A stretch of 64,000 nt of DNA, taken from NCBI RefSeq assembly GCF_900142715.1, contig NZ_FRBX01000001.1:248001-312000 (forward strand). The letters run 5' to 3'. This document shows, piece by piece, positions 15,230 to 52,170 of the stretch. The position numbers and the translations under genes were made by a program. Position 1 is the first letter of the stretch, and each line of letters begins with the position of its first letter. The notes under the pieces were generated by a model. It was not told the origin of the DNA, did no database searches, and saw only the letters and a program-made list of their open reading frames with translations. Source of the DNA: Flavobacterium pectinovorum (GTDB lineage Bacteria; Bacteroidota; Bacteroidia; Flavobacteriales; Flavobacteriaceae).

Positions 15230-15257
15230 TCAAATAAGAAATTCAATTATATTAGGA

Positions 15258-15289
15258 ATCCCTTCGATATTCGAAGGGATTTTTTTTTG
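15258..15289 (+). terminator. Terminator of sucC
   Basis: ATCCCTTCGA (15258-15267) pairs perfectly with TCGAAGGGAT (15271-15280) over a 3-nt loop, and nine T follow. Confidence 0.9.
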
Positions 15290-15292
15290 TTT

Positions 15293-15558
15293 TTAACCGC
15301 AAAGGACGCCAAGGTTTTTTGAAGGATTGTGAATACAAACACAAAGCTAAATCAATAAAATTTCACGGATTGTATTTCAGCATAGCCCGTGGTTTCAACC
15401 ACGGGGACGTCCAGATATATTGTATGATATGCGTTGGGCTCCCGCGGTTGAAACTGCGGGCTATATTTGAAAATAGGATTATAGTTACAATCTTTTTTAT
15501 AAAGCAAAGTTGTTTGGCTAAAAAACCTTGCGTGCTTTGCGTAAACCTTTGCGGTTAA
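15293..15558. repeat. Composite inverted-repeat element, copy 1
   Basis: Bounded by 13-bp terminal inverted repeats TTAACCGCAAAGG (15293-15305) and CCTTTGCGGTTAA (15546-15558). Inside is a REP-like core (15382-15464) whose arms, ATAGCCCGTGGTTTCAACC... and ...GGTTGAAACTGCGGGCTAT, pair across a 35-bp centre. A second copy with the same order lies at 18345-18636. No convincing ORF was seen, so it looks like a non-autonomous repeat. Confidence 0.7.
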
Positions 15559-15563
15559 ATTAA

Positions 15564-16361
15564 TTATTTCAAAACTGTAGACAATTCTACAAGTTCAAAT
15601 GTTGGATCATTTTCGATAAATTCTTTCAGCATTGCAGCATGGCCTGCACCAAGTAAAACCATTATTTTTTCGTCTTTGCTTTCTGTTAATTTTTGAACTA
15701 AAGAATACATATATAAGTTTCGCTTGTACCAATTTGCAACTAAAGAAGCACCTGTAAAATCATCTGGTTTTCCGGTTCTGTTTGCGACTTCTAAGTACCA
15801 TTGTATATTCTCTCTGTCAGTTTCTTTTTTATTAAAGTAAAGCATAAGTTCGGTTAAAGTACTTTTTGAAATTCTTTCGTTTTGATCCTTCTCGAATTTT
15901 TCCGTCATTTTTGTGTTCTTTTCCATTAAATCCTTCTGATCAGCTTTTTCCATGCTCATCATTAAACTGTCATATGGAAAGCGGGTGCGGTAATCAATTC
16001 CATATAATTTTTTGTGATTCAATTTTTTAGCAGTACGAAGTGCTAACTGCGTAATTTCATTTTTACTATTTTTAAAAAGACTGTCTGTGTTTTTATTATA
16101 AAACTTGTCTAATTCATTTTGTTGGGTAAATTTCCATTCGACAAAAATTTTATCTGGCCCAAATTTCTTGATTTTGTCACTTATAGTTTCAAGTTCTTTT
16201 TGGCTTTTCTCAGACATAATGTTGAACGTTTTGATTTGAGCGATATCATTTCCCGGATTTGCAAAATGAAAAGTTCCGATTAACAGAATTTGTTTCTTTT
16301 TCGTTTGAGCAGATGATAGGTTAAATGTAAAAAGGACTAGTAATAAAATGATTTTTTGCAT
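15564..16361 (-). CDS. DUF5694-type secreted protein (TraB/GumN-like)
   Basis: A 265-residue protein with a signal peptide (1-18, ...LSSAQ). It opens with ILLIGTFHFANPG and closes with VLLGAGHAAMLKEF. This GTFHF...GAGH layout is that of DUF5694 and the wider TraB/GumN/Tiki-like fold, some members of which are thought to be metal-dependent proteases. The middle is highly charged and mostly helical. It ends 6 bp from a repeat element and has no obvious operon partner. Family assignment is fairly sure; enzymatic activity is not demonstrated for this group as far as I know. Confidence 0.7.
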   Translation of the reverse strand: MQKIILLLVLFTFNLSSAQTKKKQILLIGTFHFANPGNDIAQIKTFNIMSEKSQKELETISDKIKKFGPDKIFVEWKFTQQNELDKFYNKNTDSLFKNSKNEITQLALRTAKKLNHKKLYGIDYRTRFPYDSLMMSMEKADQKDLMEKNTKMTEKFEKDQNERISKSTLTELMLYFNKKETDRENIQWYLEVANRTGKPDDFTGASLVANWYKRNLYMYSLVQKLTESKDEKIMVLLGAGHAAMLKEFIENDPTFELVELSTVLK

Positions 16362-16557
16362 GGTGATTTTGTATTTAAATTCATTGCAAATGTAGAGGCA
16401 GATTTCAAGCTTTTTTTTCGTTTTTGATGAACCACAAGTTTCATTGGATCAACTGCTGAAATTTTGTTTTAAAAATTTTCGTGTAACGTTTTCCACGGTT
16501 GGTCAGTAAAAAAGTAAGGTTTTATATAAACAACGTTTTTCTTTAAAGTCATAATTG

Positions 16558-16565
16558 TATTTTTG
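16558..16565 (+). promoter_or_regulatory. -7 box of the LytS-type kinase gene
   Basis: TATTTTTG lies 17 bp upstream of the ATG at 16583 and fits TAnnTTTG, implying a very short leader. Confidence 0.45.
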
Positions 16566-16582
16566 AACTTATAACTGATATT

Positions 16583-17623
16583 ATGAAGCTTAAAATTCCT
16601 TTTTACTACCATATCATTCTTTTTCTCGGATTGTTTTTAACTTACTGTCTCTGGGATTACGGAATCAACAACCGAATTGAGATGGTACAGGAGACCACGT
16701 TCTATTTCTGGATGACCTCGACTTTTATTCTTTCCGTTTTTGTGGTTTATATTATCAATTTTTATACGGTATGCGATTGGTTTCTCAATAAAAAGAAAAT
16801 TCATTTTTACTTTTTGAGTATTCCATTTTCTTTACTCATTTTTGCGGGTGTCAGATACTTTTTTCAGGAAGTGATTATGTTTCAATTTACGGGAGTTCAT
16901 AATTATTCTGAAAGAAGCAGAGAAATAATCTTTTACATTAAAGACAATTTTTTCTTTGGTTTACCGTCTGTTATTTTTAGCATGCTGAGTTATTTGTTTT
17001 GGCAGTTCCAGCATACACAGCAACAAAATCAGGAATTACTTTTAGAAAACAAAAAAGCTGAATTTCAAATGCTGAAAGCGCAGGTTAGTCCCCATTTTTT
17101 GTTTAATACATTAAATTCTTTTTACAGTCAGCTGATTCTGAAAGAGGATGAAATGGCGGCAGACGTTCTGGTTCTTTCCGATTTGCTTCGCTACGTGATT
17201 ACAGAAACTGACAAAGATGAAGCGGTGCTTTTAAAAGAAATTCAATTTATTCAAAACTACATTCATTTACAGAAAAAACGATTTGAAGATCAGTTGTTTT
17301 TGGATTTTACTATTGAAGGAAATTATTCGAATGAAAAAGTTCTTTCGTCGGCGTTAATTCATTTTGTAGAGAATGTTTTTAAGCACGGAAAATTTAATAG
17401 TGAAGAAGAAAAAGCAGTTATTTCAATCCGCATAAAAGAGGATTTTTTAGAAATTTCAACTTTTAATTATAATGTTGGAGGTGAAAATTATTCTTCAACC
17501 GGAATTGGTTTTGAAAACCTGACAAAAAGGTTAGAGTACACCTATAAAGACCAATTTGTACTTGAAAAAACAGAAGAAAACAATATCTTTAAAACCTACT
17601 TGAAAATACCCCTAAAAAAATAA
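16583..17623 (+). CDS. LytS/YehU-type sensor histidine kinase
   Basis: A 346-residue membrane kinase. The N-terminal third has four predicted membrane segments (about 7-25, 42-62, 73-93 and 112-135) and no large external sensor domain. A short coiled linker (QQQNQELLLENKKAEFQ) leads to the His_kinase (PF06580) domain, with the phospho-acceptor H171 in VSPHFLFNTLNSFY. The HATPase part has ALIHFVENVFKHG as its N-box and GIGFENL as its G-box. It is followed 3 bp later by a LytTR regulator, so the two form a two-component pair. The signal is unknown. Confidence 0.88.
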   Translation: MKLKIPFYYHIILFLGLFLTYCLWDYGINNRIEMVQETTFYFWMTSTFILSVFVVYIINFYTVCDWFLNKKKIHFYFLSIPFSLLIFAGVRYFFQEVIMFQFTGVHNYSERSREIIFYIKDNFFFGLPSVIFSMLSYLFWQFQHTQQQNQELLLENKKAEFQMLKAQVSPHFLFNTLNSFYSQLILKEDEMAADVLVLSDLLRYVITETDKDEAVLLKEIQFIQNYIHLQKKRFEDQLFLDFTIEGNYSNEKVLSSALIHFVENVFKHGKFNSEEEKAVISIRIKEDFLEISTFNYNVGGENYSSTGIGFENLTKRLEYTYKDQFVLEKTEENNIFKTYLKIPLKK

Positions 17624-17626
17624 TTT

Positions 17627-18334
17627 ATGGCTTTAAAATGTATTATTGTTGATGATGAACCGCCTGCAACGCGTATTCTCGAAAATTATATTGGAAAAGT
17701 AAATTTCTTAGAAAAAGCAGCCGTTTTTAATGATTCATTAAAAGCATTAGAATTTTTAAATACACAAAATGTTGATGTTATTTTTTTGGATATTCAAATG
17801 CCTCAATTGACAGGTTTACAGATTTCAAGAATCATTTCAAAAGATATAAAGGTGATTTTTACCACAGCATATCCTGATTTTGCTTTAGAAGGATTTGAGT
17901 TAAATGCGGTTGATTATTTATTAAAACCAATTTCATTTGAACGCTTTTATCAGGCTGTCACAAAATTGAATTCCGAACAAAAAACAGTTGTTGCTGCTCA
18001 GAATACTGCACCCGATTTTTTATTCATTAAAACCGATGGAAAGAATAAATTTCAGAAGATTTTCCTGAGTGATATTTTGTATGTAGAAAGCCTTCAGAAT
18101 TATGTTTGTATTCATACGAACCAACAACAGATCATTACACATTCATCCTTAAAAAATGTAGTAGAATCATTGCCTTTAGCAGATTTTATTCAGATACATA
18201 AATCATATGTTATTTCTTTGAAACATATTGAATCAACAGATAATTTTTCTGTATTTATAAATGGAAAAGAACTGCCAATTGGTGCCACTTTTAAGGATTC
18301 TTTCTTTGAGAAAATAGAAGAAAATAAAATTTAG
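17627..18334 (+). CDS. LytTR-family response regulator
   Basis: A 235-residue regulator. The receiver domain (1-115) has the acidic pair D9/D10, the phospho-acceptor D55 (VIFLDIQMPQ) and K100 (YLLKPISF). The C-terminal LytTR DNA-binding domain (about 130-232) has LFIKTDGK, LYVESLQNYV and FIQIHKSYVIS, all typical. It partners the kinase directly upstream (3-bp gap). Targets cannot be seen here; such pairs often regulate nearby or surface-related genes. The gene ends next to a repeat element with no separate terminator. Confidence 0.9.
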   Translation: MALKCIIVDDEPPATRILENYIGKVNFLEKAAVFNDSLKALEFLNTQNVDVIFLDIQMPQLTGLQISRIISKDIKVIFTTAYPDFALEGFELNAVDYLLKPISFERFYQAVTKLNSEQKTVVAAQNTAPDFLFIKTDGKNKFQKIFLSDILYVESLQNYVCIHTNQQQIITHSSLKNVVESLPLADFIQIHKSYVISLKHIESTDNFSVFINGKELPIGATFKDSFFEKIEENKI

Positions 18335-18344
18335 GTTTTTTGAT

Positions 18345-18636
18345 TTAACCGCGAAGAGCGCAAGTTTTTTGTTTATAGGATTTTATATAAACGCATCCCG
18401 AAGCCTTGGGACGCAAAGCTTTATGATAAAACTTTGCGAATATAGCCCGCGGTTTCAACCGCGGGGATGTCCAGATATATTGTATGATATGCGTTGGGTT
18501 CCCGCGGTTGAAACCGCGCTATATTTGAAGATAGGATTGTAGTTATAATAGTTATAATCCCTTTAAACGGAAAAGTTCGCAAAGCTAAATATAGCCTTGC
18601 GAACTTTGCGTAAATCATTGCGCTCTTTGCGGTTAA
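18345..18636. repeat. Composite inverted-repeat element, copy 2
   Basis: Bounded by TTAACCGCGAAGAGCGCAA (18345-18363) and TTGCGCTCTTTGCGGTTAA (18618-18636), 18 of 19 matching. The core at 18442-18522 differs from the core at 15382-15464 by five substitutions and a 2-bp deletion. An extra imperfect palindrome (GCATCCC...GGGACGC) lies near 18394. The element fills nearly all of the 320-bp gap between converging genes. Confidence 0.7.
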
Positions 18637-18654
18637 ACCACGTATCGAACGAAA

Positions 18655-41382: not shown

Positions 41383-41407
41383 AGTTTTTTTGTACTGTTG
41401 GTTGTTT

Positions 41408-41511
41408 TTAACCGCAAAGTTCGCAAAGCTGAATCAATATACAGCTTTGCGAACTTTAATTTTTACAAGATCACATACAGATGAAAAAATCCTTGCGAAC
41501 TTTGCGGTTAA
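41408..41511. repeat. TTAACCGC...GCGGTTAA element, short form
   Basis: TTAACCGCAAAGTTCGCAAAG at the left and CTTGCGAACTTTGCGGTTAA at the right. Inside, AAAGTTCGCAAAGCTG (41416-41431) pairs perfectly with 41442-41457. It shares its ends with the elements at 15293 and 18345 but lacks the REP-like core. Confidence 0.65.
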
Positions 41512-41550
41512 TTTTTTTCATATTCTATTTCTCAACTTTTCAAAAAAATA

Positions 41551-42971: not shown

Positions 42972-42994
42972 TTTTAGTTTTTAGTGTATTAAAT

Positions 42995-43113
42995 TTAACC
43001 GCAGAGTTCGCAAAGATTTTACGCAAAGTCCGCAAGGTTTAATACACAAAGCTTTGCGAACTTTTAATCCTTAAATCAGCCCGAAAAAAAAAACTTAGCG
43101 AACTTTGCGGTAA
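42995..43113. repeat. TTAACCGC...GCGGTAA element, short form
   Basis: TTAACCGCAGAGTTCGC (42995-43011) and GCGAACTTTGCGGTAA (43098-43113) bound a block with further GCAAAG/CTTTGC words. It is a fourth member of the family, between converging genes. Confidence 0.6.
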
Positions 43114-43116
43114 AAT

Positions 43117-52010: not shown

Positions 52011-52066
52011 GTACTTGAAATTTTGCAAGTAACCTTACAAAGATTTTAAATTCATTGTATGAAAAA

Positions 52067-52147
52067 AACATAGCCCGTGGTTTCAACCACGGATACACAA
52101 TCATAGTCACAATTCCTATCCTCGTGGTTGAAACCACGGGCTATGTT
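52067..52147. repeat. REP-like element with perfect 25-bp arms
   Basis: Arms 52067-52091 and 52123-52147 (beginning AACATAGCCCGTGGTTTC) are perfect inverted copies; each arm is itself a palindrome around CCGTGGTTTCAACCACGG. The arms match the cores at 15382 and 18442, but the 31-bp centre is unrelated. Confidence 0.65.
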
Positions 52148-52170
52148 TAGTAAGATTGTGCATTTTTCTA

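Follow-up and report, generated by a model that had tools for sequence, protein, structure and literature searches.

Two intergenic blocks, A and B, frame a DUF5694 gene and a LytS/LytTR gene pair in the window (the whole 64-kb stretch of DNA analysed; Table 1). Each is most probably a REPIN nested in a larger and older palindromic intergenic repeat, with REPs spread by a Y1 transposase and with later loss, copying, inversion of the spacer and gene deletion at the two sites. The first-pass annotation had read the blocks as a mobile, non-autonomous nested REP or MITE. Dispersal, non-autonomy and the REP core were all recovered in our analysis, but the blocks proved to be made of two independent repeat families rather than one mobile element.

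Table 1. Features of composites A and B and of the genes between them (coordinates in the window).
Feature	Coordinates	Strand	Description
Composite A	15292..15559		Outer palindromic element (TTTAACCGCAAAG...CTTTGCGGTTAAA) flanked by convergent genes, sucC and DUF5694; DNA fold z -8.0
A left REP	15382..15405	+	ATAG + CCCGTGG-TTTCAA-CCACGGG
A REPIN spacer	15406..15440		
A right REP	15441..15464	-	Inverted; one G.T pair
DUF5694 gene	15564..16361	-	Inside A-B interval
LytS-type histidine kinase gene	16583..17623	+	Inside A-B interval
LytTR response regulator gene	17627..18334	+	Inside A-B interval
Composite B	18344..18637		Outer palindromic element; convergent LytTR and DUF1456 genes on either side; DNA fold z -12.2
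B L2 palindrome, left copy	18412..18438		Inner palindrome of GCAAAGCT..AGCTTTGC type
B left REP	18442..18465	+	ATAG + CCCGCGG-TTTCAA-CCGCGGG
B REPIN spacer	18466..18500		Inverted relative to the same-site spacer of six other species
B right REP	18501..18522	-	Inverted; 2-bp deletion at foot
B L2 palindrome, right copy	18572..18607		

The blocks are each delimited by TTTAACCGC and GCGGTTAAA. Sequence comparison confirmed the inverted ends first described for them, with TTAACCGC starting at 15293 in A and 18345 in B and GCGGTTAA finishing at 15558 and 18636, respectively. It also confirmed the shared core with its five substitutions and 2-bp gap. Over 77 nt (15382-15458 in A, 18442-18518 in B) the cores are 94% identical, and the gap follows directly (CGGGCTAT in A, CGCTAT in B); the right flanks agree at 82%. 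As single-stranded DNA, both blocks fold very stably. The REP pattern gave five matches within the window with none expected, and the outer end eight with 0.23 expected. An earlier claim, that several core differences between A and B are paired across the arms, was overstated: a single pair in the left REP (T/A to C/G) has changed in a truly compensatory way, and the remaining differences lie in the spacer or alter one side of a stem (G-C to G.T). For the REP family as a whole, on the other hand, covariation is strong. An Rfam search of the blocks returned no family at gathering score, the weak matches being due to chance, and the exact core had no match in a collection of genome contigs from which records near the window may be excluded.

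Concerning the inner layer, A and B each contain a REPIN, that is, two inverted ATAG-CCNNNGG-TTTCAA-CCNNNGG hairpins (ATAG-CCNNN-GGTTTCAACC-NNNGG) about 35 nt apart. Pattern searches and fetched loci were used to count REPs and outer elements. When up to three mismatches were allowed, one REP hairpin matched 54 sites in the home genome (5.61 Mb in 14 contigs), and the reversed control gave none. Among 53 distinct REPs from the fetched loci, variable stem pairs 1, 2 and 3 are Watson-Crick in 52, 52 and 47; the means after shuffling were 23, 29 and 27. In 46 of the 53, ATAG immediately adjoins the hairpin foot. As pairing lies far above the shuffled level, it is the hairpin that is conserved in the REP, with a variant of the GTAG guide. 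We thus find a short palindrome in dozens of dispersed copies with its stem under selection, arranged in inverted doublets with a short spacer and also as single REPs. The tetranucleotide at the foot of canonical REPs is GTAG or GTGG (PMC3733652, PMC6006769), whereas here it is ATAG. Another REPIN of the same family is located at 52066-52148 of the window, outside any outer element; its 26-nt arms are perfectly complementary and its spacer is 31 nt long.

Searching the genome for the core and the ends, as had been proposed, revealed the genome-wide REP family together with a third home composite (C4:972.2 kb), positioned between convergent genes 0.7 Mb away. In relatives, composites were found elsewhere in G127, G396 and G006. 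The last of these carries its REPIN-bearing outer element at C3:367.7-368.5 kb (L298 550-1280), beside a putative tRNA gene; its A and B sites are without REPIN.

We then compared sites A and B among relatives, sampling one genome per species. The order sucC - A - DUF5694 - LytS - LytTR - B - DUF1456 is common to about 50 fetched genomes, and most of these carry the outer element at both sites. The empty sites that had been sought in relatives were of two kinds: at A, at B or at both, most genomes have an outer element that lacks the REPIN, and five (G056, G224, G337, G352, G315) have no element in an 80-bp sucC-DUF5694 spacer. A REPIN within the outer element is present in about eight genomes at A (G000, G135, G289, G361, G394, G318; degraded in G226 and G434) and in eight at B (G000, G042, G404, G289, G361, G394, G193, G141), out of about 57. 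Near relatives can differ, as in G361 with and G249 without the REPIN, sisters in the protein tree. In G361 and G289, where both sites are occupied, the REPINs at A and B have unrelated cores. The DUF5694 gene beside site A is found as two adjacent copies in some genomes (L157 3441-5077; loci of G116, G122, G135, G371 and G226).

In most composites the REPIN is flanked by two copies of L2, an arrangement that simple REP insertion does not explain. As recombination between these copies could remove the REPIN, its absence alone is no proof that insertion came later. Two trees, each drawn from between three and five genes at a single locus, disagree in places, and therefore do not firmly polarise what was gained or lost at A and B. 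The outer element is old at both sites, and the REPIN is patchy within it; in the reading favoured here, the outer element was ancestral at both and the REPIN entered it.

Retention over a large clade might suggest that the elements are kept for a function, as bidirectional terminators or 3'-end stabilisers for convergent genes, mobility being incidental. The strong folds of A and B would suit such a role, as would the location of A, B and the third copy, all between convergent genes. We nonetheless consider this unlikely. The sucC gene already possesses a terminator-like hairpin with a T run, upstream of A (15257-15290), element-free sites exist in the five genomes listed above, and both sequence and size vary widely between species. 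Moreover, the spacers between convergent genes are where insertions are least harmful.

The outer layer is an independent palindromic repeat family, mostly without REPIN. Exact CTTTGCGGTTAAA occurs 36 times in the home genome, compared with four control matches. Large genomes of the genus commonly carry it, and the rest of the order almost entirely lacks it. In the fetched loci, 23 complete outer copies of 68-294 bp were identified, most of them without a REP; A and B are the longest of the 23. Two more outer elements with TTTAACCGC ends lie in the window at 41407-41512 and 42994-43115, without REPIN. Most outer copies hold a second palindrome, CGCAAAGTTCGCAAAGCT...AGCTTTGCGAACTTTGCG (L2), and small palindromes of the AGCCACGAATT.. 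and AGCCACAGATT.. types are likewise nested in outer elements. In one case (G042 C1:1573051-1574588, L296), an ISAon1 element (ISL3) lies inside an outer element.

A different possibility is that the whole composite, TTAACCGC ends included, is a single MITE moving as a unit through a transposase that recognises the ends. Terminal inverted repeats are present in many copies, and at A, B, the third home locus and the loci of G127 and G396 the REPIN has homologous flanks on both sides. Against this, most relatives have an outer element but no REPIN at A and B. In addition, a target-site duplication of at least 3 bp was found in 1 of the 23 outer copies, where shuffling expects 2.2, and none of the end pairs examined encloses an autonomous partner with the outer ends. 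A home 1.8-kb end pair was rejected because it contains ordinary genes, and a 1.5-kb pair in G042 because it is the ISAon1 insertion, which has its own ends. Other Y1 transposases were also rejected as drivers of the outer element, as no consistent outer ends lie beside them. Movement as a unit is, in our judgement, unlikely.

A REP-associated transposase had been suggested as something to look for, and a REP-flanked Y1 gene was found in eight genomes. Y1 (PF01797) was matched three times in the home genome, once only weakly. The gene at C5:110.8 kb adjoins an array of the same ATAG REPs. Orthologs are present in seven other genomes, and REPs lie within 1.5 kb in all eight loci; a stricter REP pattern was found near the ortholog in 7/8 loci, as against 0/22 other Y1 loci in the relatives. 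Among 61 same-genus genomes, REPs are present in 8/8 with the ortholog compared with 5/53 of the others (Fisher p = 4e-7, phylogeny ignored). At the same time, five genomes have at least three REP matches without a close transposase ortholog. From this association, the gene is likely to be the cognate transposase of the ATAG REPs, and it is very probable that the family was amplified by this Y1-type (IS200-like, HUH) enzyme seated among its own REPs.

The home copy of the gene has a TGA stop at codon 9, a position occupied by W (tryptophan) in four aligned orthologs, and retains both its HUH motif and the tyrosine region at the C terminus. Barring a sequencing error or a restart of translation, the stop implies that the home gene is probably inactive, in which case the home REPs would probably no longer be mobilised. 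A second Y1 gene of the home genome, at C5:88.5 kb (L083 4200-5250, C5:88-89 kb), is intact and is surrounded by another palindrome, CTGGACTGAAGTCCAG with GTAGGGC; the two apparently form a second REP-transposase pair.

The spacers between the REP arms were then examined. Those at site B in G042, G404, G289, G361, G394 and G193 resemble one another on the same strand, and all three home spacers, those of A, of B and of the third copy, agree with them in reversed orientation. For the home B spacer, z-scores against B of the other species, calculated on short sequences with composition shuffles, were 3.7-6.6 reversed and 0.2-2.9 on the same strand. The right flanks match site B of the six species unreversed (for home A and the third copy, z is 4.5-7.8; for home B it is 1.6-3.2, a weak signal), and exchanged flanks gave z of about zero. 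As the spacers match reversed and the flanks unreversed, the segment between the REP arms must have turned at least once relative to its surroundings. The simplest cause would be that the inverted arms recombined or that the template was switched between them.

All three home copies have the turned form and are closest to one another, so copying within the genome took place; it is also the best explanation for A and B having nearly identical cores. The idea that the outer element arose at A by gene conversion was dropped, since most relatives have an outer element there. Plain local duplication of one composite in the home genome, which the first-pass annotation had itself named as the result that would overturn its reading, is very improbable: the 94% core identity, the common inverted spacer and the similar right flanks agree with it, and within-genome copying does hold for the core pair, but it accounts for core similarity only and not for the family, as outer elements stand at both sites across the clade, several other species have REPINs at both, G361 and G289 with unrelated cores, and the third home copy, 0.7 Mb off, has the same spacer. 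After entry into the outer element, the REPIN would have been lost, copied between sites and flipped, most likely through recombination or template switching involving the inverted REP arms and flanking repeats.

Being repeats separated by about 3 kb, A and B are able to delete the DUF5694-LytS-LytTR block. In G057, the 3' side of sucC is followed by a REPIN array and then directly by DUF1456; DUF5694, LytS and LytTR are absent from the locus, and the genome contains no DUF5694 match. The last spacer and right end of the array are B-type, and both trees place G057 among block-bearing genomes. Recombination between A and B thus appears to have deleted the block in G057. The same was rejected for G396, in which another gene lies between sucC and the composite. 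G435 lacks the block and has one composite in place, with a right end that is ambiguous between A and B, and we do not claim a deletion there.

Taken together, the inner layer resembles the REPINs or BIMEs associated with RAYT (TnpA-REP) transposases (PMC3116915, PMC2817692, PMC6006769). Like them, it has REPs paired as inverted doublets around a short spacer, shows compensatory changes in the stem, is spread through intergenic regions across the genome and has one cognate Y1 gene per genome flanked by REPs, with a different palindrome beside the other Y1 gene. It differs in its ATAG foot (GT[AG]G in REPIN/RAYT systems), in being nested in a second repeat family and in having a spacer inverted between species. 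The home protein, a 114-aa fragment, also scores 28.3 against the NCBIfam model NF047646 (REP_Tyr_transpos), below its cut-off of 80, with a score nearer IS200 TnpA. The transposase is related by sequence to those of IS200/IS605 (solved relatives 2xm3, 2xqc, 2fyx and 2f4f), which also use hairpins with a short 5' guide; whereas these elements have one left and one right end, the home gene has several REPs, mostly on its 3' side. The outer TTAACCGC element is like MITEs in being short, palindromic, dispersed and non-coding, with terminal inverted repeats and a variable interior, but unlike them in its lack of a target-site duplication and of a partner transposase among the loci searched, and in its nested smaller palindromes.

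Most of what is known about REP/transposase systems comes from Proteobacteria, and the open literature searched yielded no description of this ATAG-REP family in Flavobacterium. The system offers many species with syntenic sites, with transposases both intact and broken and with or without REPINs, so that one can trace gain, loss, inversion of the spacer and gene deletion through repeats at the same two sites. We tentatively raise the possibility, which goes beyond the reading favoured above, that REPIN arms serve as inversion points, the segment between two inverted REPs turning over in the course of evolution within unmoved surroundings, and that REPIN-bearing composites flanking accessory genes serve as repeated deletion points. 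If so, a small parasitic repeat would shape which regulatory modules a species keeps.
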